Source: a virus
Virus record (IMG/VR): IMGVR_UViG_3300020207_000012
Location: 1-64,000 of that record
Length of the DNA: 64,000 nt
Direction: 5' to 3' (one strand)
This document shows positions 3,823 to 38,793 of the stretch, piece after piece. The translations under genes were made by a program, and so were the position numbers. The notes under the pieces are model-generated. The model was not told where the DNA came from and did no database searches. It was given only the letters and a program-made list of their open reading frames with translations. The stretch's first letter is position 1. The number at the start of each line of letters is the position of its first letter.

Positions 3823-4448
3823 GTTTTGACTTCTTAACATTAACAGCATATGGTGATCAAATAGAATTAAAGCCAACTATAGATGGAAAGAAGTTTGTTC
3901 GCTGGTCAGAAGACAACTTCAAGTATGTTAGATATAATCCAAGACACGATGTTAATCGTTGGGGGTTAAGTATAACTAGTTTAGATGGTGGGCTTAGTGG
4001 TGTACCAGATTTAGATAGCCTACATCAATATAATATAGAAAACAATACTAGTCATGCTGAAACAGACTTTGATGTAGTCACACCAGTTTACGAACAATAT
4101 AAAGAACTTCAACAAATTATTGAACCATGGAAAAATTACATGTTTCGTTCACATGTAATCAGATTAGGCCCGGGAGGTTTTTTCCCACCACACCGTGACA
4201 CATATCATTATGATATCAATACTTTTAGATTAATTGTTCCATTACACAATTGTAACCCACCAAATGTTTTCTTCAACTTAGAAGAAAACGCAATGCATTG
4301 GGAACAGGGACGTATGTACTTTCTTAATACAACTAAAGTACATACCCTTTTTAATGCTAGTTTTGATAATAGTTACTGGATTGTTTTTAACATAAAATGT
4401 AATAAAGATTCGGTAAACGCTGTTTTGAGAAACTTAAAACAAAATTAG
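3819..4448 (+). CDS. 2OG-Fe(II) oxygenase-like (aspartyl/asparaginyl hydroxylase type)
   Basis: The 209-residue protein contains FRSHVIRLGPGGFFPPHRD (about residues 107-127), which supplies an HxD iron-binding pair, and further on VHTLFNASFDNSYWIVFNI, which supplies the distal His. RLIVPLHNC between them resembles the beta strands of the double-stranded beta-helix. This is the arrangement of Asp/Asn beta-hydroxylase-like and other 2-oxoglutarate oxygenases; substrate is unknown and could be protein, nucleotide or small molecule. It is coupled to thymidylate synthase by an ATGA overlap, so a role near nucleotide metabolism is possible but unproven. It converges with the rSAM operon, its last 4 bases overlapping the end of rSAM-1. 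Confidence 0.7.
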   Translation: MSFDFLTLTAYGDQIELKPTIDGKKFVRWSEDNFKYVRYNPRHDVNRWGLSITSLDGGLSGVPDLDSLHQYNIENNTSHAETDFDVVTPVYEQYKELQQIIEPWKNYMFRSHVIRLGPGGFFPPHRDTYHYDINTFRLIVPLHNCNPPNVFFNLEENAMHWEQGRMYFLNTTKVHTLFNASFDNSYWIVFNIKCNKDSVNAVLRNLKQN

Positions 4449-5557
4449 ACTTTTCTCTTTGGTATTTTACTATCGGCTGAACTTACACAACTTTTGCTAA
4501 TACAAGGCATCGGTTTATCAAATAGTTTAAATCCACTCTCAATATATCCTAATGGTTGATCTGCACAACTATATGAACGTTTGATGGATCCGTCAGGTTC
4601 ACGTATAATAATTCCTTGATATCCACTGTTACAACTCCATCCTTCAAAATTATTAAAGTTAAAAGCATTGAAACGTTCTGCTTGGTCCATATACCACTTC
4701 TTACCTTTTGAATCAGTGAACTCTACCTGCATATGCCATGGAACGCTTTTATCATTTTCACCAATAGCGTACTGTGGCATTTCAAATGTAGGCTTCGGTC
4801 TACCCTCCCATTTTCTTTTTACTTCAGTATAAGCCATTTGAGGCATACCATTCCACAAACGCTTCATTTGTTCTTCTGTATATCCTTCAACAACTTTTGA
4901 CGCTGTTGGGTCACTTTGGGGTTTGAGGGTAACGTTGATTCCTTGCTCGTGGAAGAAAAGAGCATTTTCCCAATCTTTTTCAAACCACTCGGGAACCATG
5001 ACCATGTTGATTGTAATCTGTACATCGTGTTCCTGACACAGGATTAATTTGTCTGCAAATTCCTGCATCTTCTCCTTCGTGTCTAAATGCTCTGTATGTA
5101 AACTTGCTGTAATACTTGCTCTATGAAAAGGTTTCGCTCTTTCCACATAATCCTCAAACCACTTAAGTGGGCGAGAACAATTACTAGTCATATGTATACT
5201 AGTATAGTTAGTATTAGGAACATCATCAGCCAAATGGCCCAGTATGTCCAAGTATCCAGGGTGGAAGGTAGGCTCGCCCCCACTAAGACTAAAGTGAAAA
5301 CTATTAAATCCATTATCACGTGCTTGCCTCTTTATTTCATCTACTGTTGCTAGACACAACTCTGTTGGTCTGTGATCTTTTCTGTCACTTCTGGCATAGG
5401 GCCAGCAATAACTACATCTATAGTTACAGAAGCGTCCAAGTAACCATGACACTGTAAATAAGTCACGGTAAAGTAATGTACGCTGTCCTACTTGTACTAA
5501 ATCATCAAAAGGTATTTTAGTAAAGTCATACTCACTCCATTTTAAGTCTTCACTCAT
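4445..5557 (-). CDS. rSAM-1: radical SAM protein with C-terminal auxiliary-cluster domain
   Basis: Radical SAM enzymes use a [4Fe-4S] cluster on CxxxCxxC to split S-adenosylmethionine into a 5'-deoxyadenosyl radical. Here the motif is CNYRCSYC (first Cys ~44), followed by the SAM-binding FSLSGGEPTFHPG. The C-terminal third has extra cysteines (WSCNSGYQG, YSCADQ, CISKSC) laid out like a SPASM/twitch domain holding one or two further clusters, typical of enzymes acting on peptides or other large substrates. I start at ATG 5557, which forms an ATGA overlap with the upstream PP-loop gene; an ATG at 5575 would overlap more. It is the last gene of the operon that begins at 14050. It resembles rSAM-3, -14 and -15. 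Substrate unknown. Confidence 0.85.
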   Translation of the reverse strand: MSEDLKWSEYDFTKIPFDDLVQVGQRTLLYRDLFTVSWLLGRFCNYRCSYCWPYARSDRKDHRPTELCLATVDEIKRQARDNGFNSFHFSLSGGEPTFHPGYLDILGHLADDVPNTNYTSIHMTSNCSRPLKWFEDYVERAKPFHRASITASLHTEHLDTKEKMQEFADKLILCQEHDVQITINMVMVPEWFEKDWENALFFHEQGINVTLKPQSDPTASKVVEGYTEEQMKRLWNGMPQMAYTEVKRKWEGRPKPTFEMPQYAIGENDKSVPWHMQVEFTDSKGKKWYMDQAERFNAFNFNNFEGWSCNSGYQGIIIREPDGSIKRSYSCADQPLGYIESGFKLFDKPMPCISKSCVSSADSKIPKRKV

Positions 5558-6180
5558 AGTCGTCCAAATCCCCATTGTCTTTCTTCACACCACCAACAAT
5601 AACCACACTGTTCTACTGTAGGATCAATGTCTGGTAGATGTTTCATCGTGTCATCCATCCATTCACAACTACTAGTTAACTCAAACAAATCTAATAAGTT
5701 ATGTTTTCTATATAAATTAGCAATACCACGTTTATCTATATTAGCAAATGGTAATCTAACTTTACCATCAAACAGAATTTCAGGGCGATTACCGTCTGGT
5801 GTTCTATCATCTACTGGACCATCTTTACTAATGAAACTCTCAACGACATCTGCCGGCGGATTAGCTGTAGCACCATTATAAAAACAACTTATAGTATTAC
5901 TATCTAATAATGAACTAAGATCCTCGTTCAAGTTTTCTAATGTCTGATGTGGTATATGTCTTAATCTATGGTCATAGTTTGTAAATCCAGTAGCATTGCT
6001 ACAGTACTCTATGATAGAAGGAGTTCTTTTTGCATTACGTTCAAATTTATCTGCTGCTGCTACTGTACATATGTACATTTTATTTTTATGTACAGACATC
6101 AGTAAGTACAATAGAAGTGCGCTATCTGCACCTCCACTGACTGATACTCCTATAGGTTCATTCGGTGTTTCTATAATCAT
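5554..6180 (-). CDS. PP-loop ATP pyrophosphatase, QueC-like (copy 1)
   Basis: The 208-residue protein begins with the PP-loop SVSGGADSALLLYLL (about residues 12-26), the ATP-binding signature of N-type ATP pyrophosphatases that adenylate a substrate carbonyl. Its C-terminus has SSCEW, then CGYCWWCEERQWGF, a four-cysteine zinc site spaced as in QueC (7-cyano-7-deazaguanine synthase). QueC turns carboxy-deazaguanine to preQ0 using ammonia. No QueD, QueE or GTP cyclohydrolase homologue is evident in the window, so activation or amidation of another carboxylate is equally possible. It lies between two rSAM genes with short overlaps on both sides. A second, diverged copy is at 10418-11296. Confidence 0.78.
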   Translation of the reverse strand: MIIETPNEPIGVSVSGGADSALLLYLLMSVHKNKMYICTVAAADKFERNAKRTPSIIEYCSNATGFTNYDHRLRHIPHQTLENLNEDLSSLLDSNTISCFYNGATANPPADVVESFISKDGPVDDRTPDGNRPEILFDGKVRLPFANIDKRGIANLYRKHNLLDLFELTSSCEWMDDTMKHLPDIDPTVEQCGYCWWCEERQWGFGRL

Positions 6181-7130
6181 AATTCTTCTTTTATAAATGT
6201 ATCACGCTTCATTTGCTTACATACTTGCATACAGCGAGGAACAGGATTATCCCCATCCCAACTATCAATAATGCCCTTCCACACTTTACTGTTTATGGCA
6301 TCTTCAATACTTGCGTTTTCTAAATTTATCGTATTTTTATAATCGTTTTCTTCTAGTAGTGTTTCAAATTCATCTTTGTGAATACCTGTTACATTATATT
6401 CCATCATTTTACTATTTAAATGACAACAAGGTATTACGTTACCAGTATGATTAATAAAGATACGCTTTTGATTTCCATATTTACAACTCACATATGGTAT
6501 CTCTACTGCGTTATCTATGTCTTCAGTCTTTGCCGCTTTCACACCTTTAGTGTCTTTACGATGACTAATAATAGTTTTAAAATTTTTAAACCCTTCGTCA
6601 GATGCTTTTTGTTTTGCTTCTTCCATCTGATGTTCGTTATGTTCAAAAACAATGAACTGCCAATTACTTCGACCACCTGCTGCGTTAAATGCTTTATAGT
6701 TTTGTTCTACTTTTTTAAAGCTACTGCCTTCTCTATAAACTTCACTTAGTTCATCACTTCCATCGATTCCCCAGGTAACTGCGTGGCTCTCTGGTAGTAG
6801 TCCTGCTAAGTCTGTCCACCATTGTGGGTGACGCAAACTGCCATTAGTAGCAATGTTAATATGCGCACCCCAATCAGCAAAGTGTCTTATGATATCAAAG
6901 AATTGTGGGTGCGATGTGGGTTCGTCTACACTGCCACAAAAATTTATAATCTTAATACTTGGAAACATATCTTTTTGAAATCGTTCACGTATTGTATCAA
7001 TTGTAATATATTCTTTGTTTAATATTTTATCAGCATGTTTAGATATAACTCTAAAACATCCTTTACATTGGATGTTACAAAAACTTGTTAGTTCTATATC
7101 TAACCATTCTATTGTTTTCATATCCCACAT
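6177..7130 (-). CDS. rSAM-2: radical SAM/SPASM-like, HNEH subgroup
   Basis: The cluster motif CNIQCKGC is at residues 18-25, very near the N-terminus. In place of the usual GGEP it has FCGSVDEPTSHPQ. A central IVFEHNEHQMEEA motif is shared with rSAM-9 and rSAM-11. The C-terminal part has CKYG, IPCCHLNS and CMQVCKQ, a cysteine set like SPASM domains. The length of 317 residues is compact for the group because the charged linker present in the relatives is short. It sits 12 bases after the nitroreductase and overlaps the PP-loop gene by 4 bases. An alternative start is the internal ATG at 7121. Its substrate is unknown. Confidence 0.83.
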   Translation of the reverse strand: MWDMKTIEWLDIELTSFCNIQCKGCFRVISKHADKILNKEYITIDTIRERFQKDMFPSIKIINFCGSVDEPTSHPQFFDIIRHFADWGAHINIATNGSLRHPQWWTDLAGLLPESHAVTWGIDGSDELSEVYREGSSFKKVEQNYKAFNAAGGRSNWQFIVFEHNEHQMEEAKQKASDEGFKNFKTIISHRKDTKGVKAAKTEDIDNAVEIPYVSCKYGNQKRIFINHTGNVIPCCHLNSKMMEYNVTGIHKDEFETLLEENDYKNTINLENASIEDAINSKVWKGIIDSWDGDNPVPRCMQVCKQMKRDTFIKEEL

Positions 7131-7142: not shown

Positions 7143-7772
7143 TTATATTACATATGTTTTTATAGATTTACTATGAGAAACTATATTTCTAAAAACAGTA
7201 CCATCATCATTTAGTACAGTATTCCACGTATGTTCTTTATTAGGAAAACCTATACCCAATTGATAGTGTGGTTTTGAAAAAAATTCAATATCTGTTTCGC
7301 CTGTAACTTCTGTTACTAATTCAGCAATATCTTTTGAATCAAAACATTGATTGTATCCGGTACGGTATCCTAAAGCATTCGCTGCAAATGCTACAGCGCC
7401 ACTGCTAATTCCCATAGCAGTTCTGGCATTTAATAACCATGGATCAAAAAATCCTTGAGTGTTTTTCCAATCTCCAATGCCTTCTTTTTTAAGTTCAAAC
7501 CAAGTAAACACCACAGGTGCATCAACTTGTGCGTTTCTACCTACAGTTTGTTGATTATCTGGATCTTCTGCCAATTCATAAAATTTACGATTTAAATCTC
7601 TATCGGTTGATACTACTAATCTGTAAAATTCATCATTAGATTTAGTAGGCATGTTTATTGCTATATCAATTAGCGCATGTACATGTTCTTCTGGAACCGA
7701 TTGTGTATGATCCCAGTTACGTTGGCAATGTTCAGCGTTTTTGCTTGCTTCAATTAATTCATTTACATTCAT
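7143..7772 (-). CDS. Nitroreductase-family FMN oxidoreductase
   Basis: The 209-residue protein has the nitroreductase fold pattern: an N-terminal RNWDHTQSVPEEHVHALIDIA with the basic FMN-contact region, PTKSNDEFYRLVV, then NARTAMGISSGAVAFAANALGYRTGYNQCFD, which corresponds to the helix and loop near the flavin, and a final GIGFPNKEH segment like the conserved xGxP[ND] motif. Members reduce or oxidise small molecules with NAD(P)H and FMN, including BluB-like ring cleavage and flavin dehydrogenases in natural-product pathways. Within an rSAM operon it most likely performs a redox tailoring step. It overlaps rSAM-3 by 4 bases (ATGA). Physiological substrate is not predictable. Confidence 0.78.
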   Translation of the reverse strand: MNVNELIEASKNAEHCQRNWDHTQSVPEEHVHALIDIAINMPTKSNDEFYRLVVSTDRDLNRKFYELAEDPDNQQTVGRNAQVDAPVVFTWFELKKEGIGDWKNTQGFFDPWLLNARTAMGISSGAVAFAANALGYRTGYNQCFDSKDIAELVTEVTGETDIEFFSKPHYQLGIGFPNKEHTWNTVLNDDGTVFRNIVSHSKSIKTYVI

Positions 7773-8983
7773 TTTGTGTTCTCAAATATACTCATGTCTT
7801 CAATGTGTTGAGGTAAAATACTCATTAGTTCATCACGTTCAATACTCTTAGGTGTACACATACCGCATCCACAATGCTTTCCAGGACCTAGAGGGCATGT
7901 TATAATAGGCATTGTTTTATTTTCTATATTAGTACGGAACTCTTCTATAATCTTATCGCATTCTGAAATAGATCCAATTGGACCACGTGTACCATCAAAA
8001 CGTGCTTGACAAGTTTGGTGATGCCAGATAGTATCTGTTTGTTGTTCAATATGTAAAAAGAACCAGTTGACACTACATTGCCAGTTTCGAAACTTAGCAA
8101 ACTCTAAAAATGTGCTTTTACTCCAGCAACCATCTGTACCGCAAGTTTCCATTGTGCGACTACCACAACACGGTCTACCCAACTGTCTAGCAAATTTCTT
8201 TTCTTCTGTTTTTTCGACTTGTACAGCACCAGCTTCGTGTCCTACTTCTGCTTCTGCTTCTTCCGTAGTTTTATCTTTATTAAGTGCTGCATTTTTATCT
8301 GCCCAATAATCTTTCATCCACTGTAATTGTTCTTCAGTATATTTATGGGCATAACTATTTTTACTATCTTCGTGTTCACCAATCATACGCGGAACGTAAC
8401 CGATACCATCACGTTCGAAACGCATACATAATTCTTTACATTCATCCCAATATTCAGCATGGAACATAACATTAATTTTGATTGGGAATCCTTTTTCAGT
8501 TAGATAGTAAATGTTATTAACAACTTGCTTTTTTAAACTTGAATGTGCTTCCGCATGGTAACTGATAGTCATAAAGCCATAGTTTTCGCAAACACTGTCT
8601 GCCATCTTTTTACCGAAAGCACCGTTACTAGTAATAGTCAAGTTTAGTCTATAATCATCTTTATAATTTTCACGCCATGTTTGCTGTAGCCATTCGCCAA
8701 ACTCTAAAAAGTTTGGATTGTTTGTAGGTTCACCACCAGTAAAATTGATGTTTATACCTTTATTTTTTTTATAAGGCATCATTAAATTTGCGTAATCAAA
8801 AATAAATCTGCCAGTCTTTTTTAAAGTTTCTAAATTAGCATGTGGTGAAAAGTTATCGTGTCTATGTGGTGGACAATATGTACAGTCATAGTTACAACGT
8901 CTACCCACATCCCACGTTACAGTAAGATTGTCACCATCCAGCAAATTGATTGCTGTAAAATCAGTGTATTCTAAATCTTTCAT
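7769..8983 (-). CDS. rSAM-3: radical SAM protein with cysteine-rich C-terminus
   Basis: CNYDCTYC lies at residues 30-37, preceded by TVTWDVGRR as in rSAM-14, and followed by INFTGGEPTNNPNF for SAM binding. A glutamate-rich charged insert (around residues 238-265) separates the core from a cysteine-rich tail: RPCCGSR, ETCGTDGCW, WQCS, HQTCQARFDG and finally CPLGPGKHCGCGMCTP, the likely auxiliary Fe-S site. At 404 residues it is longer than rSAM-1 because of the insert. It starts with an ATGA overlap with rSAM-4 and ends with another into the nitroreductase, so the operon is tightly coupled. Substrate unknown. Confidence 0.85.
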   Translation of the reverse strand: MKDLEYTDFTAINLLDGDNLTVTWDVGRRCNYDCTYCPPHRHDNFSPHANLETLKKTGRFIFDYANLMMPYKKNKGININFTGGEPTNNPNFLEFGEWLQQTWRENYKDDYRLNLTITSNGAFGKKMADSVCENYGFMTISYHAEAHSSLKKQVVNNIYYLTEKGFPIKINVMFHAEYWDECKELCMRFERDGIGYVPRMIGEHEDSKNSYAHKYTEEQLQWMKDYWADKNAALNKDKTTEEAEAEVGHEAGAVQVEKTEEKKFARQLGRPCCGSRTMETCGTDGCWSKSTFLEFAKFRNWQCSVNWFFLHIEQQTDTIWHHQTCQARFDGTRGPIGSISECDKIIEEFRTNIENKTMPIITCPLGPGKHCGCGMCTPKSIERDELMSILPQHIEDMSIFENTK

Positions 8984-10431
8984 TTTATTGGAGTCTCCAA
9001 AAATTCTATTATGTCCGGATGAATGTAATCATTATAACATTGATTTCTACTCATGTCAAACACTTTTATTTCTTTTAGCATATTCAATCTATGTTGTTCT
9101 GTTATTTCTAAATCTAAGTTTGCTTCTAAGAAAGAAATACCACTTATCATATTAGTATGATAATAATCATTATTATGACTATAATTTTCTTTGATATTTT
9201 TAAATTTTTCTATCAAGTCTAACTTTATATGTTTAGGTAAAAACTTAACATTTATGTATTTTTCTTCGGGCCAAAGCAAGTCTAAAAAGAATACAGCAAA
9301 TTCATTTGATTTTCTACCATACTCTTTATGTAAACTATAATGAAACTCTACTAAATCCTCTAAGTAATGTGCATTTAGCACACTAAGAACGACATTGAAA
9401 CTAAAGTTTTTTATGAATCCATATGGTGTTCTTTTATAATTAATATCTTTGACAGATTCTAAAATATTTCTTAAACTCTTTTCTAATACTGAAAATTTCA
9501 TAGGGTATCTTATATATTCATAATTTTTCCCATATCCATCGATACTACAATTTAATACAAGACCGTCAAACTTTTTTAACTTTTCTATATTTTCATTTGA
9601 AAACTTAGTAGCATTAGTATGGAACTCTAACATAATATTTTTTGAGGCTCCAGTTTCAATAGCCGTATCTAAAAACTGTATAAAAGGTTTACTCATAAGA
9701 GTTTCACCACCAGTTGCTTTTATATGTTTTAAATTATGTATATTGTCTAATATATTTTCCCACTGTTTTCCGTCTTTCCAGTTGTATACTTGGTATTCGC
9801 CACCTATGTATAATTCTTGATCCGTTCTCTTTTGTTCTTCTAACGATAATTCAGTAAGAGAATTTTCTTTTATGATAGTATCTCTGCGTTTCTGCCAATC
9901 AAATCCTTGAATACCACTTGTGTCCACATTGTTATCGGCAAAATATTGATAGTCTAATCTAAGTTTATTACTTAAACCTGGTTGACACATACGACATCTC
10001 AAATTACAGTTTTCACCAAACGCAAAATCAATAGAACTTAATTTTGGATTTTCTATAAGATCATCTAATTCGTCTTCGTCTGTTATTTTTAATAAGCCAG
10101 GAGGCATGCTGTCTAATCTATAACTATAAACGTCATCTCCATTTCCGTTTTCTTCCATCTTCCAACACGTAGCACATGAAGGATGTCTTCTGTTAGTTAA
10201 CGCATACTCTCTTATTTCATTCATCGTCTTGCCATGAAATATTTCTTCTGCGGTAATAGTATCAGGATTAGATATCAGTTCTATGTGGTTATTTAACGGA
10301 TCAGGCATATCAGGACGTATCGAATTACAGCACGGCGCAGCATTCGTAATGCCATACTTGTAATGCCAAGTCTTTAACGCCAGTAATGAAAATGGAAACC
10401 AGCAAAAAGTATTATCTTTAGTTGGTTTCAC
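8980..10431 (-). CDS. rSAM-4: radical SAM with N-terminal twitch-like domain
   Basis: In this group the auxiliary cysteines precede the core: FCWFPF (Cys10), APCCNS (34-35) and SCATCWKMEE (86-89), then the radical SAM motif CNLRCRMC at 142-149. IKATGGETLMSKPF is the SAM-binding strand, with Glu kept but Pro replaced. A subgroup hallmark YEYIRYP follows. The C-terminus is long and helical. The order twitch then rSAM matches the known family called twitch domain-containing radical SAM proteins. The start is GTG at 10431, overlapping the PP-loop gene by 14 bases, with AAGGAAAA just upstream. Substrate unknown; seven proteins of this subgroup occur in the window. Confidence 0.82.
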   Translation of the reverse strand: MKPTKDNTFCWFPFSLLALKTWHYKYGITNAAPCCNSIRPDMPDPLNNHIELISNPDTITAEEIFHGKTMNEIREYALTNRRHPSCATCWKMEENGNGDDVYSYRLDSMPPGLLKITDEDELDDLIENPKLSSIDFAFGENCNLRCRMCQPGLSNKLRLDYQYFADNNVDTSGIQGFDWQKRRDTIIKENSLTELSLEEQKRTDQELYIGGEYQVYNWKDGKQWENILDNIHNLKHIKATGGETLMSKPFIQFLDTAIETGASKNIMLEFHTNATKFSNENIEKLKKFDGLVLNCSIDGYGKNYEYIRYPMKFSVLEKSLRNILESVKDINYKRTPYGFIKNFSFNVVLSVLNAHYLEDLVEFHYSLHKEYGRKSNEFAVFFLDLLWPEEKYINVKFLPKHIKLDLIEKFKNIKENYSHNNDYYHTNMISGISFLEANLDLEITEQHRLNMLKEIKVFDMSRNQCYNDYIHPDIIEFLETPIK

Positions 10432-11296
10432 CTAACTTTTCCTTTGCTGTTGCTTTTGCCCATTCACGTTCGGCACACCAATAACAGCCTCTATTAGGAT
10501 CATCTGATAACTGATCGCACGTGGGTAGTGGTGTTTCGCCATGTACATATTTGGTGTGATCCACAAAATCATCTGGGAATATAACTTTATCACCTTCACA
10601 ACTACGAGTAGTGTTAAGTAAATCTTCCCAACCACGTCTATAATATTGTGCCATAATAAAGTCTTTGGTGATAAGTTTCCAAGGATGAACCAGTACTGGA
10701 TCTCTGAAGGCTGTATCATCTTTTTCAATATATTGTGGACATACGCTGGTAGTTGATAATCTTTCTTCATTCCATACTCTATCCCATGGACCTTTGGTAT
10801 GATTTACCACATCAGGTGCTGGATTATTTGTAATAAAATTATATACAGCATCTAACTTATATGTGTGAACAGCAAAACTATTGAAACTCTGTGTACATTG
10901 CCTATCACCGGTTGTCCCTAGTTTCTCTATAATACCAATAGCGCCTTCTTCTAACTCTGGTGGAATAAAATTCTGAATACGTTCCATACAAACATTTGGG
11001 AACATTTCACGTATTTTATTATATACTTCTACACTAATAGGTGCTGCCCAAGGTCTATTATTCCAAACTCTTACGTTTGTTAAAAAATAGATTGCTGTGT
11101 TGTTTCCATGTTTTTCAATTAACTCTGCTAGTATCGCTGTGCCAACAGCACTATCTGCGCCGCCACTAACATTTACACCAACACGTTTCCAAGTCGGATC
11201 ATACGGATATAATGCCTCGTCTACTTGATGTAATACATCAGTACTGATATTGTGCATTTCATAACTTTTATTACTTAAACTAACATCAAATGCCAT
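10418..11296 (-). CDS. PP-loop ATP pyrophosphatase, QueC-like (copy 2)
   Basis: VNVSGGADSAVGTAIL (about residues 42-57) is the ATP-binding PP-loop. Downstream, HPWKLITKDFIMAQYYRRGW resembles the QueC region that follows the active site, and the C-terminus has TRSCEGD, LPTCDQL and RGCYWCAEREWA, giving four cysteines in a zinc-site-like order. At 292 residues it is longer than copy 1, with an insert around residues 80-150. The two are clearly diverged, suggesting different substrates or sequential steps rather than a recent duplication. It overlaps rSAM-5 upstream by 11 bases and rSAM-4 downstream by 14. Adenylation of a carboxylate or carbonyl in the rSAM pathway product is the simplest inference. 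Confidence 0.78.
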   Translation of the reverse strand: MAFDVSLSNKSYEMHNISTDVLHQVDEALYPYDPTWKRVGVNVSGGADSAVGTAILAELIEKHGNNTAIYFLTNVRVWNNRPWAAPISVEVYNKIREMFPNVCMERIQNFIPPELEEGAIGIIEKLGTTGDRQCTQSFNSFAVHTYKLDAVYNFITNNPAPDVVNHTKGPWDRVWNEERLSTTSVCPQYIEKDDTAFRDPVLVHPWKLITKDFIMAQYYRRGWEDLLNTTRSCEGDKVIFPDDFVDHTKYVHGETPLPTCDQLSDDPNRGCYWCAEREWAKATAKEKLGETN

Positions 11297-14063: not shown

Positions 14064-14077
14064 TTATTAACTACGAA

Positions 14078-18275: not shown

Positions 18276-18280
18276 TATTT

Positions 18281-30146: not shown

Positions 30147-31128
30147 GAAAGTTATTATACATGTGTTCTCCTACTTTTTTATGAAATATAGGGCTAGGAT
30201 GGCTGATAAATTTCTTATAAAAGTTTTGTTGAAAATTTTCTGGACTGTGAACGTGTTCATTAAAGATTAAATCACTATCTAAAATATCAAGGGATTTACT
30301 TATATCAGCTGGCTGTAAATCCCTTGCAAAACCATATGTATGTGTAGTTATTTTTGGTAAATCTAAAAACCATGGTTCTTCAAAATAATATTTTATGTTA
30401 TATTCTTTACAGATATCTAATATACTATTCTTATAAAAATCGTATCTCAATATTTCATCATAAAAAAACTTTTCTATTTGTTTAAGAGTATAACCGTGTT
30501 CCATTTCTTTGAACCTCTCTACACCCATATTTTTGTTTCTGTTTTTTAAATCATCTAATATAGTCAACATTAAGGGCCTGTAAAAAGTATTACCTTCAAA
30601 TGTTCTTTTCTGTTCTGCTCTACCTTCAAAAAAACCAAGCATTATAATATGGCTAGGAGGATGTTCTACAAACTTTACCCAATTCAAAAAAATTCTATAG
30701 GCTGTGTTTATACCAGTACCACTAAGTCCATAGTTGATAATTTTTTGATCTGTGAAATTTTGTAGAATACTGGTCCATCTTCGACTCTCTGGGACTCCTA
30801 TCCCTTCAGTATAGCTACAACCAAAACACCAGATTTCATTTTTAGTATTTTTATCAGTATAGTTGTGTTTGCTTCTAAAATCGTAATTGTTATATTTGTA
30901 CGTCCAATTACAGAATTCTTCTATAGTATAATCATCTATACCAATGGTAAAAAGTTTACTTAATAGTTCTGGTTGTGATTTACTATATTTTTTTACTATT
31001 TCGACGGTTCTATCTTCAGCACAATTGTCATTGCCAAACTTTCCATGGTCAGTAAATTCTTCTACTAACTTACTTTTTATTTCTCTACCGTAAGATGGAT
31101 AAATTCCACGCCCATATAATTCTATCAT
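30133..31128 (-). CDS. SGNH-4: SGNH-hydrolase-like protein with N-terminal extension
   Basis: The 331-residue protein has ~95 extra residues before EIWCFGCSYTEGIGVPESRR, the GCSYTxG block I. LSGTGINTAYRIFL follows as block II with Gly and Asn, and HIIMLGFFEGRAEQKR as a central strand. Near the C-terminus SHPSPIFHKKVGEHMY carries candidate block V histidines. It is the last gene of the 42-kb operon but has its own late promoter with a perfect TATAAATA octamer exactly 5 nt before the ATG. That second promoter suggests it is needed late even when the rest of the operon is early. Confidence 0.65.
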   Translation of the reverse strand: MIELYGRGIYPSYGREIKSKLVEEFTDHGKFGNDNCAEDRTVEIVKKYSKSQPELLSKLFTIGIDDYTIEEFCNWTYKYNNYDFRSKHNYTDKNTKNEIWCFGCSYTEGIGVPESRRWTSILQNFTDQKIINYGLSGTGINTAYRIFLNWVKFVEHPPSHIIMLGFFEGRAEQKRTFEGNTFYRPLMLTILDDLKNRNKNMGVERFKEMEHGYTLKQIEKFFYDEILRYDFYKNSILDICKEYNIKYYFEEPWFLDLPKITTHTYGFARDLQPADISKSLDILDSDLIFNEHVHSPENFQQNFYKKFISHPSPIFHKKVGEHMYNNFLRQS

Positions 31129-31132: not shown

Positions 31133-31777
31133 TTATTTATAATGACTATACAATGCCTGTGCTAATTCAAACTCTTCCAATTCATCAATATCGATAGCTT
31201 CGAATTGATTCATATTAAAATATTCGAACTCCATTGGTATCATGTATTTTGCTTCTCTTAAATCTTTCATCTTACAGACTGTACCTGCATATGGAAACAT
31301 ATATACTGGATCTATTCCTTGACTGTATGGATGCCAAAGACCGAATGTAAAATTAATAGGTCTTTTATTAACATCCAAATAATAATGTGAACTATTGTGT
31401 ACAGCAATATGGTTCTTTCCTGTATTCTTATATACATTATATAATTCATCATATCTTTTAAACAGAGGACAACAAACAAATGTATAAATTACATCTTGGT
31501 CATCTTCAACTGGTACACCGTTATATATCTGTTCTAATACATATGTAAATCTAGTTACATTGTTACAATATTCAGAATCACGTTGAACATACGTGACATT
31601 TTCTGTATTAGATACTTCTGTATCATCTGTGCTAATATAAACGTGTTCTGCTCCGGCTGCAAACAATTGTTCTAGTTTTACATCTACAAGAGATTTACCA
31701 TCGTAAAACTCCATATGATGTTTACCGGGTAATCTTTCACTACTCTTTTTATAATTAGTTACACCTACAAATCCCAT
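31133..31777 (-). CDS. CMP-sugar cytidylyltransferase-like protein (NeuA/KdsB type)
   Basis: The 214-residue protein starts GFVGVTNYKKSSERLPGKH, matching the nucleotide-binding signature [RK]xxSxRxPGK of CMP-sialic acid and CMP-Kdo synthetases. VDVKLEQLFAAGAEHVYIST is the following helix-strand. YVQRDSEYCNNVTRF occupies the place of the conserved R-x-x-x-x-a-x-D segment. DVIYTFVCCPLFKRYDELYN matches the region where the CTP/sugar aspartate and Pro lie. Such enzymes activate an acidic sugar with CTP. It fits with the glycosyltransferases upstream and with a phage-modified surface glycan. The specific sugar cannot be told. Confidence 0.75.
   Translation of the reverse strand: MGFVGVTNYKKSSERLPGKHHMEFYDGKSLVDVKLEQLFAAGAEHVYISTDDTEVSNTENVTYVQRDSEYCNNVTRFTYVLEQIYNGVPVEDDQDVIYTFVCCPLFKRYDELYNVYKNTGKNHIAVHNSSHYYLDVNKRPINFTFGLWHPYSQGIDPVYMFPYAGTVCKMKDLREAKYMIPMEFEYFNMNQFEAIDIDELEEFELAQALYSHYK
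31134..31141 (-). promoter_or_regulatory. Perfect T4 late octamer TATAAATA, 5 nt before SGNH-4
   Basis: The minus strand reads TATAAATA-ATCCT-ATG. This is an 8 of 8 match to the T4 late promoter, embedded in the stop-codon end of the cytidylyltransferase gene, with the same 5-nt gap seen at four other genes and no Shine-Dalgarno. Confidence 0.7.
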
Positions 31778-31789: not shown

Positions 31790-32665
31790 TTAAATGAAAC
31801 ATTCTTTCTTTCCGTAAATGAATGCTTGTTTTATTAAATCTGAATCGTTTGTTACTTTAAATGTTAAATCTGTTGTCATCCTTGGTAATCGTACGGTTAC
31901 ACTTTCACATGTATCTGGAAAGTTATCATTACAATATTTTAAAAATTTCACAGCATCAAACTTTGGGTATTCTACATAACCTCTATCATCAGGTTTTTCC
32001 CAAGATGAATGATAACTGTAAAGATGTAAATGTTTTATTCTTCCTGCTATTCTTTCTATGAAGCCAAGAAGATTTCCTTCATATGATTTTTCTAAATCTT
32101 CTAAAGTTGAAATATACTTGTTTACTTTTAATATGTTAACAGGGATTTCAATTCTACTTTCATCTTTAGGTTTCATTAAGATTATACGCAGAGGCTTATC
32201 GATTATTTGATGAGATTGGCTTATTGTACTTCCTGGATGAATTGTATTTCTATGAACGTTGCTTAATACAGGAGGCGACTTAACATCTCCTTCTATCAAA
32301 TCACTACATAATACTAGCATACGATAGAATCTTGCGAATAGATTATCAAAGTCTGCTTCATCGTTTTTGTCTATAAGCTGTAAGTCTTTTAAAAAATCTA
32401 GACCTTTTAAAACGCCACTACCATATGGTATACTATGATATTTTTCTGAAAGGTTGCCATCTAACCACAGTTGACTCATGTTATGTTCCCTTGTGTCTAT
32501 AAAACAATCTATCAAACTAAATTCTTTTAATACGTCTTTCCAATCTTCGTATGTTGGTTGTGCTATCGTACGCCATGAGTGAGATGGATGAGTCAATAAC
32601 GCATAGTTTACATCATCATCTCTATTATCTAAAAATATCTTTTTAAATAATTCATGTTCATTCAT
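31790..32665 (-). CDS. Unknown protein between cytidylyltransferase and B12-type rSAM
   Basis: The 291-residue product has no motif I can assign. It starts MNEHELFKKIFLDNRDDDV and has a segment SNVHRNTIHPGSTISQSHQI (about 137-156) rich in His, Ser and Thr that could be an active site, followed by beta strands (LRIILMKP, ESVTVRLP). It overlaps rSAM-12 by 8 bases upstream and ends 12 bases before the cytidylyltransferase start, so it is a member of this pathway by position. It might be a partner or transferase for the sugar route. Confidence 0.6.
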   Translation of the reverse strand: MNEHELFKKIFLDNRDDDVNYALLTHPSHSWRTIAQPTYEDWKDVLKEFSLIDCFIDTREHNMSQLWLDGNLSEKYHSIPYGSGVLKGLDFLKDLQLIDKNDEADFDNLFARFYRMLVLCSDLIEGDVKSPPVLSNVHRNTIHPGSTISQSHQIIDKPLRIILMKPKDESRIEIPVNILKVNKYISTLEDLEKSYEGNLLGFIERIAGRIKHLHLYSYHSSWEKPDDRGYVEYPKFDAVKFLKYCNDNFPDTCESVTVRLPRMTTDLTFKVTNDSDLIKQAFIYGKKECFI

Positions 32666-34796
32666 TTATAAATTCAACTCCATCGAACTCTGATACGTTT
32701 CCTGTTAGTTCAAAATACTGTTTATCAAAAGACATATCTTCTCTTTTTAGTTCATGTTCTTCTACTGACCTGTCTTCGTTTTGTGCTACATGCTCAAATT
32801 CATACCAGCATTTAAAGCTATAGTCGCCGTTGTCATCAACTTCCCACTCTGCTTCGCCTGATAGCATAGTGGCAAGGCTCACACCAAACTCCTGCATATC
32901 TAGTTCCGGATCCCAAGTCATTTTAAATTTATGTCCACTGAACGCTTGATACATAATCCACATATGTGGTAAGTTTTCATTTGCCAATGTAGCAGCTAAA
33001 TTATTTTGGGCGGTATCACCACTAAAAATATTAAAATTTTGATTTGAACGTTGTGGTATGTAATCCTTATATTCTCCGGGATTATTCTGTTCAAATTCTA
33101 CAAATTTACTCATTCCCGGACGACTCTGAGAATTAATTATAGTTCCTTCTGCTTCGTTGATACACATAGACAACCATTGATTCATGTACTTCAATCGTAA
33201 TGCCCTATGTAGAATAGTATTCTCATAATTTTCTGTATACCAATTACTCATAAACTTATTATCCCATGGAGTTTCACTCCATTGAATTTTATAGTTTTTC
33301 CAGTTCTTGTTCATATCACTCAGTGGAGCATCACCGCATGTCATGCCCGGCGAGATAACCGTGGCCCAATTTCGTATATTATACAAAACGTGTAAACTAT
33401 GACACCATTCAGCAGGTCCTTCAGTTGGGAATCCGACGACCCAGTTAATATGATTTTCTATTCCTGCTATTTTAGCATCACGTAAGTTGTCTTCTATTTC
33501 CCAAACTTTAATTTTCTTTTTCATATCAAGTAGAACCTTTTCACTTCCACTTTCAACTCCAAAACTTAACAAGCTACAACCACTCGCTTTGATTTTATGA
33601 AAGAATTCTAAATCCATACGTCCATCACATCTAGCATAGCTATTCCATCTGATGTCCATACTACGTTCAATTATCTGATCTACTAAATCTCTAAACGCTT
33701 TTATATTACCATTTACTAAACTATCAACAAACCAAAATCGTCTTGTACCATAAGTATCAATCTGATGCTGCATTTCATCTATAACATTTGTACTTTCACG
33801 GGATCTAAACTTCCAAAAGTGTGTCTCGGAACAGAAACTACATAGAGCAATACAACCTCTACTAGTTTCAATACTAACACCGCCTTGGTGAGAATATAGA
33901 GACAAATCATAATCTGAATAATCTGGAAAAGGCATTTGGTTTAAATCAAGTCTGCTATTTGCTCCTCCGAAAACATGAGGACCATCTTCTTTTGAATATT
34001 CACTATAGTTTTCCAAGTAACCCAATAACATTTCTTCGCCTTCACCTATAATTCTAACATCATAGTTTTCTATTATATCTGCCAAAGGATATGGATGTCT
34101 TTTATGAGGATTGGGTTCTTCATAATCATCTAACCAGTCTTGGAACGCTTCTGGGCCACCTATTAATATTGTGATATCGGGCGCAAGACGCTTTAATTCT
34201 TTTATCATATACGCACTAGGAACAGTATTTGTAGCATACAAACTGAAGCCAACAAATCTAGCACCATCGTTAATAATACGCTGTACTGTTTCGTCTAATA
34301 GTGGAGTTAACGCAGGTTTTATTTTAGTATCATAGTTTGGAACAATCCAATGATCCCAGTATATTGCGTCCCATGGATCATAATCTAACTTATCTTTAAG
34401 ATAATGATAAGATTCAATATTAGTATCATATACTGTTACTTCATAACCATTTTCTCTCAGCAATGATGATATACGTGCTGCGTTATATGGAGGAAATATA
34501 ATACCCCAACTAGGACAAACAACAAAAGATATTTTATCATTTTTTCTAGGAGGATTTAAACTAGACCAATACTCATATCCAGTATCCTCTCTTTGACTCC
34601 AATATGTATAATTTTTAGAAACAGAAGAAACAGGATCTGTTCCTAAATGACTGTTGGCATGACGCATTTCTTCTTCATGCTGAATAACAGTTAGAACAAT
34701 TTGATCTCTGTCTTCGCTTTTAAAATCATACTTTGGTTTTGACTTTTTTTGAGAGGTCAGCGAGTTTTGTTCTTTGCTTTCGTTTCTCTGCGTCAT
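32658..34796 (-). CDS. rSAM-12: B12-binding-domain radical SAM protein
   Basis: This 712-residue protein is built as N-terminal extension (~1-85), a cobalamin-binding-like Rossmann domain (ISFVVCPSWGIIFPPYNAAR, ARFVGFSLYATNT, ITILIGGPEA), then a radical SAM core with CIALCSFC near residue 314 in SIETSRGCIALCSFC. SGCSLLSFGVESGSEKVLLD is typical of the Elp3/MiaB-type core. Class B rSAM methylases of this architecture transfer methyl groups from methylcobalamin to unreactive carbons or phosphinates. The C-terminal ~200 residues are unassigned. The gene starts 71 bases inside rSAM-13 with AGGAAG before the ATG; ATG 34667 is an alternative that removes the overlap. Confidence 0.85.
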   Translation of the reverse strand: MTQRNESKEQNSLTSQKKSKPKYDFKSEDRDQIVLTVIQHEEEMRHANSHLGTDPVSSVSKNYTYWSQREDTGYEYWSSLNPPRKNDKISFVVCPSWGIIFPPYNAARISSLLRENGYEVTVYDTNIESYHYLKDKLDYDPWDAIYWDHWIVPNYDTKIKPALTPLLDETVQRIINDGARFVGFSLYATNTVPSAYMIKELKRLAPDITILIGGPEAFQDWLDDYEEPNPHKRHPYPLADIIENYDVRIIGEGEEMLLGYLENYSEYSKEDGPHVFGGANSRLDLNQMPFPDYSDYDLSLYSHQGGVSIETSRGCIALCSFCSETHFWKFRSRESTNVIDEMQHQIDTYGTRRFWFVDSLVNGNIKAFRDLVDQIIERSMDIRWNSYARCDGRMDLEFFHKIKASGCSLLSFGVESGSEKVLLDMKKKIKVWEIEDNLRDAKIAGIENHINWVVGFPTEGPAEWCHSLHVLYNIRNWATVISPGMTCGDAPLSDMNKNWKNYKIQWSETPWDNKFMSNWYTENYENTILHRALRLKYMNQWLSMCINEAEGTIINSQSRPGMSKFVEFEQNNPGEYKDYIPQRSNQNFNIFSGDTAQNNLAATLANENLPHMWIMYQAFSGHKFKMTWDPELDMQEFGVSLATMLSGEAEWEVDDNGDYSFKCWYEFEHVAQNEDRSVEEHELKREDMSFDKQYFELTGNVSEFDGVEFINE

Positions 34797-36414
34797 TCAT
34801 TCTTCCTATTGCTGCCGCTAAATCTGGTAGACTTTCTTTCCAGTCTTCTTTTCTTATTTTATCAAGTCTAATTGTGTCTCTTTTAAATTTTTCCCACATA
34901 TTAGGGTCTTGTTCTTTTGCCCACATTTGTCCTAACGCTTGCTTTAAAGCAGTTTCAGTAATACCTGCCCATATCATATCATGTTGTGTACAAGTGTCGA
35001 TTGGCCATCTTTTCCAGATATGAGTTATAAATCTATTATATAGATCCTCTACTTCTTTTTTAAGATATGTAGGTAAATTTTGTATACAATATTGCTCTGG
35101 ACCAAATACTAAATGTATATGCATTTCATTACTAAGACGCTTAAAGTTTTGTTCTTTTATCCAATACATAAAGTCTGGTACATGAAACACATTCATAATA
35201 CTAAGAGTTAAAGTAACTTTAGCTTCTAAATTATCAAGTCTGGGATCAGTATCTAATTCTTTTAGTAATCTTTCAGTCTTACTCCATTTTCCAGGATTTC
35301 GTATGTATTCAAAATGACTATCCATACCATCAAGACTCATCCCTATTACTACTTTTTTGAATTGTGCCCAAAGATCGAAAAAGCTCTTACTACTCGCAGC
35401 CATATTACTATTATATTCTAACTCTATATTTTTCGATAAACCTTTTTCAACAATCATTTCTAACAATTCTCTATGCTTATGATTGATAGTAGGTTCACCT
35501 CCTGTAAAATATAATCTTTCTATATACTTTAAGTTTTTTGTAATATCAGTCCATAGTTGTGAACCTTCATACCAACTTTTCATATGAGGTATCTCAACCT
35601 GACCTTTAGAATTTGTTATGATTTCAGCATGTTCTCCGTCTAAATCAATTGTAAATGGTTTATCAGATTTTTTACTGTCTACCATTTCCATATAATCTTT
35701 ATACCACAAATCACTATTTGATGGACCACAAGACCTGCATTTTAAATTACATTTATTACCAAAACGTAGATCCCACCATCTAATAGGAAAATCTTTGTTT
35801 TTAATTTTTCCATCTTTTTTAGTTTTTTCATATGCATTTAGTACTACATCTGGAAAATGTTTATTGGCATATTTTCTTCTTGACATGCCATACGGCACAG
35901 CATCTTCTTCGTCAAAACATAATTTACACGCAGATGGTCTTTTACCTTTCAACATATCACTTCGCAACATCTTCCAAAATTTTGCGTTTCTGTTTCTGCT
36001 TATCTTATCATTATAATTCAATAACGTACCATCATCTTTTTCAATAAGTCCTACATTAGATGACTCATCCGTGTATATCATTTGACAACAAGCACGAATA
36101 CTACCATTCGCATTAGTACCAGCATGGATCCATGGAATAGTACAGAATGAACTTTGGTCTGCTTCTCTTAGTAATTTAGATTCTAATAAATCATTGTAAA
36201 CCTCACCGAGTCTATCTTTTACAATATCTATTATATCATCATCTATTATTGGTGATCTAAGTACGCTAAGTAATACATCTTGGTCTTCATCAAATGTTGC
36301 TACAATTTCAAGTACCTCACGTGGACAATCTGGATCTAGAATCATGTCTATACGTTGCTCAGGCGTTCTGTATATGTCTGGATTCAGATCAAATCTACTA
36401 TCTACATCACTCAT
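34726..36414 (-). CDS. rSAM-13: radical SAM with N-terminal helical and twitch-like domains
   Basis: The first ~85 residues are a helical, HEAT-like segment (ILDPDCPREVLEIVATFDED) not seen in the other twitch-first proteins. Then come SFCTIPWIHAGTNANG (Cys91), RACCQM (109-110), CKLCFDEED (163-166) and the core motif CNLKCRSC (222-229). YFTGGEPTINHKH and HFEYIRNPGKW are the SAM-binding and subgroup motifs. At 562 residues it is the longest of the twitch-first group, with a basic C-terminus. It resembles rSAM-5 most (FC-x-x-PW-x-H). It starts 2 bases after rSAM-14 ends. Substrate unknown. Confidence 0.82.
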   Translation of the reverse strand: MSDVDSRFDLNPDIYRTPEQRIDMILDPDCPREVLEIVATFDEDQDVLLSVLRSPIIDDDIIDIVKDRLGEVYNDLLESKLLREADQSSFCTIPWIHAGTNANGSIRACCQMIYTDESSNVGLIEKDDGTLLNYNDKISRNRNAKFWKMLRSDMLKGKRPSACKLCFDEEDAVPYGMSRRKYANKHFPDVVLNAYEKTKKDGKIKNKDFPIRWWDLRFGNKCNLKCRSCGPSNSDLWYKDYMEMVDSKKSDKPFTIDLDGEHAEIITNSKGQVEIPHMKSWYEGSQLWTDITKNLKYIERLYFTGGEPTINHKHRELLEMIVEKGLSKNIELEYNSNMAASSKSFFDLWAQFKKVVIGMSLDGMDSHFEYIRNPGKWSKTERLLKELDTDPRLDNLEAKVTLTLSIMNVFHVPDFMYWIKEQNFKRLSNEMHIHLVFGPEQYCIQNLPTYLKKEVEDLYNRFITHIWKRWPIDTCTQHDMIWAGITETALKQALGQMWAKEQDPNMWEKFKRDTIRLDKIRKEDWKESLPDLAAAIGRMNDAEKRKQRTKLADLSKKVKTKV

Positions 36415-36416
36415 TC

Positions 36417-37811
36417 TTACTGTTCCTTAAAAAATTCTATTTCGTTATCACTATATTTTACAAGACTACTAGCATCATTTATATCTCTGATTGGTACCAA
36501 ACTAAGAGTACCTTTCATTCTTCCATTTGCACCATTGGTATGCCATTGTGGTATGTTTAAAATTCTATCTCTTAGTTTTTGCGCTCTATCTAAAAATCCT
36601 GGAGGGGTCATAAGTTTAATTTCTAACCATAGATCATCATCAACATCATCATGGTGCTGCATGATTATTTTACAATTTTCGATAAATCTGTCTTCGTTTC
36701 CACGGTATAAATCCATACTAGCAAAATGTGCGCTCATATTGACACTATTTATATACTGTGTTGCCTCACGCCAAAACTTAGTACTGCGACTACCATTTGT
36801 AGTTACCAGCGTCCATTGATTTTTAGATTTCAAATGCTTTAAGATATCAATAAATTGAGGATGCATTGTAGGCTCTCCTCCACCAAAGTTCCATCTGATT
36901 TGATCTCCGCCGCTCCAATGTTCAATAATCATATCTATCGTTTCGATAACTGATTCATATGTAGGAAATCTTTCTGTGTTACTATGAACTGCTGGCCAGC
37001 AATAATCACAAGCATAATTACATCTTCTACCAATATCCCATAATATCTGATATGGTATAGGAAAGTTCATTTCTACAGCGACTCCTTTGTCAATAGATTG
37101 TGCTGTGTAATCATCGCCACCTCGTTCCGTTCCAGAATAACCGTTATGAGTCACATCTAAAAACTTTATATGCTTTTTTGTTTTTGCTTTACTTAATATA
37201 ACATCAGCACCGCAGCCACAATTATTAAATGGACATACTACATACTCTTCGGGTATATCTATACCTTCACGGATATTACCTAATAGACCCCAATTGTCTG
37301 GTATATCATCTAGTGTACTTTCCCATTTCCAAGCACTAGCAGTTGTATCTATTTTTTCTTTTATCATATTTCTACCTAAATTACTAAAGAATGCTTCTTC
37401 AGTTTCTTTTAGGGTCTGCTGTAATTTTACGTGTTGTTCACAAGTTTCCCAGCCTATTTTTGGAAGAGGCCAACCCCCTTCTGTATTTTCATTATACCAT
37501 TCAATATGAGGATATGGACCAAAAACACGTTCACGTTCAAGTCTCCATTCTTCTACAACTGTATTATAATGTGCGCTACTATTTCTGTGGCTACTAGCAC
37601 AGTTTGCATTCCATATGTTACCGTCGTAATCAATATAAAGTCCTCGGACACCCGCACTACACTTCCATCCCTTCCAAGAGTTATGACCTCTAGCAATCGC
37701 TTCGTCTACACTCATTCTAATGAACTTGCCATCCGAACCATACAAACGCAATTGCTTATTGTCTAGTGGGATGCTTGGATCTTCTTTAATCGGCATCTTC
37801 CAAAACCTCAT
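36417..37811 (-). CDS. rSAM-14: radical SAM with domains in permuted order
   Basis: Residues 1-~215 look like the auxiliary C-terminal domain of rSAM-15: WKGWKCSAGVRGLYIDYDG (Cys51), WNANCASSHRNSSAH (Cys71) and CPFNNCGCGADVILSKAK (193-200) match the WEGWYCWSG, FDGSVMIGWC and CTKSMCHCNFDIMSKK of rSAM-15. The radical SAM core follows at ~250-464 with RRCNYACDYCWP (264-271) and WNFGGGEPTMHPQF, and then the protein stops where an auxiliary domain would be expected. It could be a true circular permutation or a fusion left by deletion between two tandem rSAM genes. An alternative start is ATG 37796. It overlaps rSAM-15 at its start. Confidence 0.78.
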   Translation of the reverse strand: MRFWKMPIKEDPSIPLDNKQLRLYGSDGKFIRMSVDEAIARGHNSWKGWKCSAGVRGLYIDYDGNIWNANCASSHRNSSAHYNTVVEEWRLERERVFGPYPHIEWYNENTEGGWPLPKIGWETCEQHVKLQQTLKETEEAFFSNLGRNMIKEKIDTTASAWKWESTLDDIPDNWGLLGNIREGIDIPEEYVVCPFNNCGCGADVILSKAKTKKHIKFLDVTHNGYSGTERGGDDYTAQSIDKGVAVEMNFPIPYQILWDIGRRCNYACDYCWPAVHSNTERFPTYESVIETIDMIIEHWSGGDQIRWNFGGGEPTMHPQFIDILKHLKSKNQWTLVTTNGSRSTKFWREATQYINSVNMSAHFASMDLYRGNEDRFIENCKIIMQHHDDVDDDLWLEIKLMTPPGFLDRAQKLRDRILNIPQWHTNGANGRMKGTLSLVPIRDINDASSLVKYSDNEIEFFKEQ

Positions 37812-38793
37812 AACAATCAGCAGGTAATACTTTTTTACTCATAATGTCAAAGTTACAATGACACATACTTTTTGTACACATAGTAGGTTTTCTAGGCCAC
37901 TTGATATTCTTAGGGTCTTTCATATTACCAAATGCACCACCAACTCTACACCAGCCGATCATAACACTTCCGTCAAAATCTACAACAATCTGTTCTATGC
38001 CACTCCAGCAATACCAGCCTTCCCAGTCATTTGTTTTATCGTTAATAAATCTATGTGCGCTGCTGTTCTGCTTTAAATCATTCACATCGTCACACATATC
38101 CATACTACCGCGGTATATCTTCCACTGCTTATCATACTTGATTTTACTACCCAACAGTTTCCATTGGTCATCGATATATTTGATTTGTTCTTCACTGTAA
38201 GAGTAAAGAGTTTCACCAAAATCAATAATCAACGGCTGTAGTGCTAATGAGATATTAGGTATTTCAATAACTTTTTCGGCAACGTCTACACAAGTAGGCC
38301 AGATTTCAGGATTGTAATGCATCATAATATTAACATGTGTTCTACACTGTTGACTCATAATTTTAACAACTTCTAAAAAGTGTTCTGGATTTCCTTCTTC
38401 TGGATGAAAACTTAAACACACGTGGTCGAACTTTTCTTTATTCTTCTCCCACCATCTTATAGTTCTACTACTGTTACTGATAAATCCTATATCATGTCCT
38501 ATTTCTTTAATGTATTCAGCACACTTAACAAAGTCTTTCCATAGTGTAACTTCACCGCCTGTAAATTCAAAATATACAGTTCTAGGAGAGTAATGCTCAA
38601 CAACTTCATCGATAAAACCTTTAACTACGTCAAAATCATTCCATCCAAAGCTACCGTCGTTAAGAATACTAGGACAATAAGAACATGTAAAGTTACACAT
38701 GTTGCCTAAATTCCAATTAACTACGACCCAATCTTTACATTCTTCATGGTGATGATCTAGTCTATTATAAAAGTTCTGTGGTCCTAATGGCAT
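37786..38793 (-). CDS. rSAM-15: radical SAM with C-terminal auxiliary-cluster domain
   Basis: The 335-residue protein has VNWNLGNMCNFTCSYCPS (core Cys at 33, 37, 40), YFEFTGGEVTLWKDF (the Pro of GGEP is replaced), then a C-terminal part WEGWYCWSGIEQIVVDFDG, MIGWCRVGG and CTKSMCHCNFDIM, probably one or two extra clusters. It has the usual core-then-auxiliary order, in contrast to rSAM-14 next to it. A Shine-Dalgarno (taggag) precedes the ATG. It sits between a glycosyltransferase-like gene and rSAM-14 in the operon from 42477. Its substrate is unknown. Confidence 0.85.
   Translation of the reverse strand: MPLGPQNFYNRLDHHHEECKDWVVVNWNLGNMCNFTCSYCPSILNDGSFGWNDFDVVKGFIDEVVEHYSPRTVYFEFTGGEVTLWKDFVKCAEYIKEIGHDIGFISNSSRTIRWWEKNKEKFDHVCLSFHPEEGNPEHFLEVVKIMSQQCRTHVNIMMHYNPEIWPTCVDVAEKVIEIPNISLALQPLIIDFGETLYSYSEEQIKYIDDQWKLLGSKIKYDKQWKIYRGSMDMCDDVNDLKQNSSAHRFINDKTNDWEGWYCWSGIEQIVVDFDGSVMIGWCRVGGAFGNMKDPKNIKWPRKPTMCTKSMCHCNFDIMSKKVLPADCYEVLEDAD

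Follow-up and report, generated by a model that had tools for sequence, protein, structure and literature searches.

A tail-linked island of radical SAM genes with a fixed core and exchangeable cargo in an uncultured phage lineage

Introduction

What does a phage do with fifteen radical S-adenosylmethionine (rSAM) genes? The question is raised by IMG/VR virus record IMGVR_UViG_3300020207_000012, of whose 92,010 bases the first 64,000 were analysed here (the window). A first-pass annotation of this DNA had noticed fifteen proteins with a CxxxCxxC motif between 4.4 and 38.8 kb, interleaved with putative tailoring enzymes, and had read them as a dedicated biosynthetic or tailoring pathway. A PF04055 search of the whole record returned exactly 15 rSAM genes, all in that interval; the domain exceeded the Pfam cut-off in 12 and scored 28.6, 26.4 and 18.6 bits in the other three, and CxxxCxxC is present in all 15, which places them in the radical SAM superfamily. 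In this report, we show that relatives share a fixed core of these genes beside the tail region and exchange the genes between, so that what was a vague abundance of rSAM genes becomes a genetic unit, defined by a recognisable core and present in at least several hundred viral contigs of uncultured giant T4-like phages.

Results

In all 26 tabulated records the core was collinear and on one strand, running from the baseplate wedge gene through two copies of A4 (the YDEP family, g41 and g27; gene numbers as in Table 1), A5 (the g25/g26 family) and g16 to g09; the wedge was undetected in 3 of the 26, and two further records, G019 and G033, were left out of the table. The first YDEP gene lies 16.6-27.9 kb from the wedge and 12-51 kb from g09. 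g16 was single copy at E<1e-240 in 26 of 27 g09 records, g09, likewise single copy at the strictest scores, was found in 22 of 25 records selected with g16 (the three without it may be truncated at contig ends), and A5 and A4, the latter usually in two copies, each occurred in 28 of 28 cluster-bearing records. Record G033 looks like the same core order wrapped around the contig ends, and the minimal case, L205, with six rSAM genes in the record, holds tail proteins, two GT8 and two YDEP proteins, A5, a g23-like protein, g16, a short-chain dehydrogenase/reductase (SDR) and g09. The core profiles provide a clear marker for the island. Single in-frame stop codons were seen in otherwise intact core genes (g16 in G018 and G019, g09 in G032, A4 in G033 and G019), for which sequencing error, pseudogene formation or recoding are possible. 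In g25 (21493-22800), repeats of about 24 residues (LRKAVxEKNLHSIFRLL) precede the methyltransferase-like domain, and their number varies widely among relatives.

The genes between the core members are shuffled rSAM genes and other tailoring enzymes, 20-50% identical among relatives. Long g09 records carried 9-26 rSAM genes in 29 of 30 cases, the 26 belonging to a 1.2-Mb record labelled as a bacterial metagenome-assembled genome (MAG) and the viral maximum being 22, and 25 records chosen with g16 carried 6-20. The density that had been called exceptional for a phage is the rule in this uncultured lineage, whose records carry 6-22 rSAM genes, and smaller modules were published in 2010 and 2020. 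Other cargo recurs across the loci: QueC-like ATPases (54 proteins in 38 of 73 loci, with SGGxDS in 52 of the 54), SDR-like proteins (30 loci), nitroreductases (28 loci, an island family of 42 proteins) and Asp/Asn-hydroxylase-like proteins (26 loci), together with other 2-oxoglutarate oxygenases, GNATs and amidinotransferase-like enzymes. A Pfam census of 94 representatives, of whose 56 families 25 were listed, added a halogenase, an AMP-ligase, a UDP-sugar dehydrogenase and a DegT aminotransferase. Membrane-like segments are rare: 4 of the 617 proteins encoded upstream of g09 in relatives have one, and none of g09-g45 in the window does. Because the core and its order are constant among relatives and the cargo is exchanged, the dedicated pathway proposed at first pass is well supported. 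That annotation, whose overall reading is supported in part, had missed the core genes, the tail linkage and the late promoters described below. The exchangeable enzymes are a still untapped source of radical, redox and group-transfer reactions.

Several island genes carry a T4-type late promoter motif, often positioned for transcription from the start codon. The sequence NATAAATA, reported as the late promoter motif of cyanomyoviruses (PMC2984593), precedes g17, g18, g21, g22, g29 and g34, as well as structural genes, and in relatives 37.5% of its sites, compared with 5-11% for control patterns, lie 8-60 bases before a gene start. Its spacing to the ATG is bimodal, being exactly 5 bases at 45 of 384 sites (controls, 1-13 of 1,014-1,199). 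None of the 54 short-spacer genes, 23 of them rSAM genes, has a Shine-Dalgarno-like sequence in the spacer, because the spacer is too short to contain one; such a sequence precedes 91 of the 121 long-spacer genes, of which 11 are rSAM genes. Since transcription begins about one helical turn downstream of the T4 late TATA box (PMC2988020), genes arranged as NATAAATA-N5-ATG (14056-14085, 18268-18283 and many in relatives) would be expected to yield leaderless late mRNAs. Genes g45 to g34 are oriented like the tail genes, from which transcription may read through into them. T4's own TATAAATA was rejected as the island promoter: it is depleted in the window (2 occurrences against 14 expected), and it is NATAAATA that sits at gene starts.

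The last gene of the island, g09, has at least 524 relatives in viral contigs, most of them 82-91% identical (82-100% among the best 80), and a tblastn search of 50,697 phage records found no match. In the g09 alignment (A1), C50/C54/C57 and C315/C337/C358/C363 are invariant, the median pairwise protein identity is 0.85, and 157 of 376 positions are conserved at 99% or more; in 27 of 36 record pairs the protein was better conserved than gp23, the capsid protein. Four-fold degenerate sites are almost saturated, with a median identity of 0.39 versus 0.33 expected from codon usage alone, so that recent horizontal spread was rejected as the source of the protein identity, which instead indicates long-term purifying selection. 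Few proteins of these phages are as constrained as g09, a level of constraint that predicts a substrate or partner both important and universal. AlphaFold gave a weak model for g09 (pLDDT 58.6) and a good one for g16 (80.5), and the Protein Data Bank (PDB) matches of both recover the rSAM core only. The neighbours of g09 in the 146-kb record G001 (L018) are a CysC-like kinase, a nitroreductase and a nucleotidyltransferase-like protein; in L019 the nitroreductase is missing from flanks that are otherwise the same.

Discussion

We tentatively favour a biosynthetic island that is linked to the tail genes, expressed late and built of a fixed core with exchangeable cargo, and that decorates something, most likely the virion. 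In such a pathway, g16 and g09 would carry out common steps on one scaffold, which the cargo enzymes would diversify by radical, redox and amide-forming reactions and by amidino-, methyl-, carbamoyl- and glycosyl-transfer. Attaching the decoration in the cytoplasm before lysis, most likely to phage tail or fibre proteins, would fall to the soluble GT8 and YDEP proteins, and the decoration would differ between phages, as host-recognition genes do. We infer the virion as the target because late timing, soluble enzymes, fixed tail linkage, glycogenin-like GT8 proteins and variable cargo together fit cytoplasmic decoration of virion proteins best.

Several points weigh against this proposal. Adjacency to tail genes and late expression do not prove that the tail is the target, and g09 is conserved far beyond what a variable decoration would lead one to expect, which suggests a universal substrate or partner. 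The roles given to the YDEP and methyltransferase-like (A5) proteins are guesses, because neither has a convincing Pfam, PHROG or PDB match (PDB profile searches with both families returned none). Moreover, record G001 has g09 as its only rSAM gene, without g16 or A5, and in G019, a probable exception to the core order, the island is seemingly split: one A4 copy lies some 26-28 kb from the wedge, the remainder at other places.

Two published systems resemble the island in part. The T4-like Campylobacter phages CP220 and CPt10 have 11-12 rSAM genes and an interchangeable module of five near tail-related genes (Timms 2010, PMC2853527), which also holds amidinotransferase and nucleotide-sugar-transferase-like genes, and amidinotransferase-like genes occur in relatives of the island too. 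The module has fewer genes than the present island, and a 30.8-kb stretch of CP220 (L110) gave a g09 match that was weak and general (1.4e-7) and none to the g16 (A2), A4, A5 or A6 profiles; the likeness is one of enzyme classes, not of common gene families. The second system is that of the pelagimyophages, in which rSAM cassettes and glycosyltransferases lie in the tail-fibre host recognition cluster (Zaragoza-Solas 2020, PMC7029224). Like that hypervariable cluster beside VrlC or baseplate genes and tail fibres, the island varies in content and lies in the structural region, its first YDEP gene being 16.6-27.9 kb from the wedge gene (phrog_10646). Beside VrlC and tail fibres, Pelagibacter phage Mosig EXVC030M has a hypervariable region containing nitroreductases, Asp/Asn hydroxylases, MoaA-like rSAM genes, a carbamoyltransferase and an aminotransferase, as in the island, and Mosig_00090 matches the A5 core family (6.6e-20). 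In the stretch examined it differs in having three MoaA-like rSAM genes, a weak g09 match (7e-5) and no match to the g16, YDEP or GT8 profiles. Experiments could start from a cultured SAR11 phage that has a related, smaller cluster. With greater reserve, we suggest that, as judged from the open-access literature, the island may be a previously undescribed system: a near-invariant g09/g16 pair would form a conserved platform together with two YDEP proteins and a methyltransferase-like protein, and swapped single-gene cassettes, many with a leaderless late promoter fused to the start codon, would diversify a radical-chemistry virion decoration.

The GT8 proteins, cytidylyltransferase, carbamoyltransferase and SGNH-like proteins of the window, the polysaccharide-lyase gene inside the interval, and the UDP-sugar dehydrogenase and DegT aminotransferase of relatives might instead remodel the host surface (lipopolysaccharide (LPS) or capsule) late in infection, blocking superinfection or freeing progeny; O-chain modification has been proposed for pelagimyophage glycosyltransferases (PMC7029224). 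We consider this unlikely, given that late expression gives surface turnover little time and that the island lacks membrane proteins, be it a flippase, polymerase, ligase or any other, even if GT8 enzymes of the LPS core can be peripheral.

A soluble natural product derived from a peptide or amino acid, for instance an inhibitor of competitors, seems no likelier. Its appeal lies in cargo that resembles tailoring sets, including the halogenase and AMP-ligase of relatives, and in nearest structures that include peptide maturases (SkfB and CteB for g16; PqqE, TigE, anSME and SuiB for g09), but these matches are weak (TM ~0.3) and fall on the common rSAM core, and transporter-like membrane proteins are missing. 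Nor do the separate short open reading frames (ORFs) of the island include a shared precursor family, although a precursor could lie inside a larger protein, and about 0.9% of the DNA upstream of g09 is free; a cluster for a ribosomally synthesized and post-translationally modified peptide with a short precursor was rejected, as no precursor gene was found.

Alternatively, the core enzymes might modify nucleic acids or nucleotides, giving hypermodified DNA, tRNA or rRNA or viperin-like nucleotide products, and a universal substrate of that kind would be in keeping with how extremely g09 is conserved. QueC-like proteins are present, a QueD-like gene lies near the rSAM module of CP220, and g09, g39 and g40 show weak viperin-family similarity; yet the viperin scores (NF038283; 38, 55.7 and 46.8 bits) all fall far under the curated cut-off of 180, by which viperin was ruled out, the thymidylate synthase adjoining the island matches the canonical phage family, and no known hypermodification enzyme is among the 25 of 56 Pfam families listed. 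The QueC family (QueC, Cap9, QatC) shares the SGGxDS ATP-pyrophosphatase motif with the island proteins, which differ in gene context and in being barely detectable with PF06508 and which had no match in PADLOC, and its members activate a carboxylate and are also known to modify protein N-termini (PMC13279940). We regard this explanation as quite improbable. Unrelated single acquisitions without common function, the pattern that the first-pass annotation had named as telling against a pathway, would agree with the highly variable cargo but are hardly credible and already refuted for the core, since a conserved gene set with fixed order and strand was found in relatives.

Annotation of the window

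The island and its flanks are listed in Table 1. The rSAM proteins comprise seven twitch-first, four core/SPASM-type, three HNEH and one B12-type. The HNEH group (6177-7130, 17149-18243, 19599-20684) has CGxxxDP in place of the expected GGEP-like motif. NF033640 (N_Twi_rSAM), a family without an assigned reaction, includes g14, g16 and g18 but not g09 (40.5 bits, cut-off 170), in a scoring that left out g17, g19, g22 and g38.

Of the enzymes named at first pass, the carbamoyltransferase was confirmed at 3.6e-54 and the CMP-sugar enzyme, a cytidylyltransferase, weakly at 1.9e-5. Of two proposed QueC-like ATPases, g10 is barely above the Pfam cut-off and g15 has the motif without a Pfam match, while the nitroreductase falls below its cut-off and stands as a member of the island family. 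Glycosyltransferases are represented by the GT8/glycogenin-like g43 and g44 (1.5e-5), g27 and g41 being glycosyltransferase-like by a DxD motif alone. All four SGNH-like proteins have a GCSx motif, with g20, g24 and g34 lacking Pfam support and g29 compared with PHROGs only; the one at 30.1 kb, said to lie just outside the interval, is within it. Overlaps between adjacent genes are indeed common and span 1-26 bases rather than 1-14, and start-codon artefacts account for the large overlaps seen at 13.8-14.3 and 18.1-18.2 kb, the starts of g17, g18 and g22 having been corrected from homology and promoter position to ~14050(-), ~14091(+) and 18281(+).

Table 1. Genes and late promoters of the island and its flanks, in window coordinates
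Feature	Position	Strand	Evidence
g09 core rSAM, C-terminal auxiliary-cluster Cys, last gene of island	4445..5575	-	PF04055 57.7 bits
g10 QueC-like N-type ATP pyrophosphatase	5554..6180	-	PF06508 23.2 bits, cut-off 22
g11 HNEH-type rSAM/SPASM	6177..7130	-	PF04055, PF13186
g12 nitroreductase-like	7143..7772	-	PF00881 21.0 bits, below cut-off; family of 42 proteins in 28 loci
g13 core-first rSAM with auxiliary Cys	7769..8983	-	PF04055
g14 twitch-first rSAM	8980..10431	-	NF033640 233 bits, cut-off 170
g15 second QueC-like ATPase	10418..11296	-	SGGADS motif; g10 family; no Pfam match
g16 core twitch-first rSAM	11286..12686	-	NF033640 412 bits
g17 twitch-first rSAM, corrected start	12683..14050	-	PF04055 46.6 bits; promoter and ATG spacing
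Late promoter NATAAATA, 5-base spacer to g17 ATG	14056..14063	-	
Late promoter NATAAATA, 5-base spacer to g18 ATG	14078..14085	+	
g18 twitch-first rSAM, corrected start	14091..15365	+	NF033640 208.7 bits
g19 twitch-first rSAM	15334..16443	-	PF04055 30.1 bits
g20 SGNH-like	16440..17156	-	GCSYTQG motif only; no Pfam match
g21 HNEH-type rSAM	17149..18243	-	CxxxCxxC; PF04055 below cut-off
Late promoter NATAAATA, 5-base spacer to g22 ATG	18268..18275	+	
Late promoter NATAAATA, 40 bases before g21	18276..18283	-	
g22 twitch-first rSAM, corrected start	18281..19606	+	PF13186, PF13353; PF04055 18.6 bits
g23 HNEH-type rSAM	19599..20684	-	PF04055 37.2 bits; homologues 58-80% in relatives
g24 SGNH-like	20684..21493	-	Motif only; no Pfam match
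g25 core family A5, LRKAVxEKNLHSIFRLL repeats and methyltransferase-like domain	21493..22800	-	Alignment
g26 second A5-family protein	22800..23741	-	Alignment
g27 core YDEP family (A4), DxD, glycosyltransferase-like, adjoins A5	23734..24834	-	
g28 carbamoyltransferase (TobZ/NodU type)	24869..26404	-	PF16861, PF02543
g29 SGNH-like, own late promoter 27285-27292	26527..27258	-	Motif
Polysaccharide lyase, lipoprotein-like signal peptide, within interval	27662-28636	+	PF14099 4.1e-15
g34 SGNH-like, own late promoter 31134-31141, 5-base spacer	30133..31128	-	Motif
g35 cytidylyltransferase (CMP-sugar type)	31133..31777	-	PF02348 25 bits
g37 B12-type rSAM	32658..34796	-	PF04055 53 bits; nearest NCBIfam PhpK and RiPP C-methyltransferase families, below cut-off
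g38 twitch-first rSAM, N-terminal extension	34726..36414	-	PF04055 29.6 bits
g39 auxiliary-first rSAM, weakly viperin-like core	36417..37811	-	PF04055 51.4 bits; NF038283 55.7 bits, cut-off 180
g40 core-first rSAM with auxiliary Cys	37786..38793	-	PF04055 40.7 bits
g41 core YDEP family (A4), tail-proximal copy	38802..39779	-	A4 family; gene order
g43 GT8-like glycosyltransferase	40362..41219	-	A6 profile vs glycogenin 1.5e-5; invariant D95/D97
g44 GT8-like glycosyltransferase	41216..42085	-	A6 profile vs glycogenin 1.5e-5
g46 tail-fibre-like structural protein, late promoter 44592-44599	42536..44566	-	phrog_33406, phrog_21285
g50 baseplate wedge protein, fixed outer landmark of island	56525..60850	-	phrog_10646 6.8e-240

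The record contains a gp23 major capsid protein (PF07068, 2.2e-81), which marks a T4-like myovirus, and the proteins nearest to it are those of PA5oct-type jumbo phages (70.7%). Its last 28 kb, read by eye, encode portal-, scaffold- and gp46/47-like proteins, and a check of tandem repeats and tRNAs gave nothing relevant to the island. Related viral contigs with the island often exceed 100 kb and reach 382 kb; bacterial MAG labels on g09-bearing contigs are likely binning artefacts. An SDR-like protein resembling the island family was also seen outside the island, beside gp46/gp47-like recombination genes (L094:8162-8758, at about 72.2 kb of the record).

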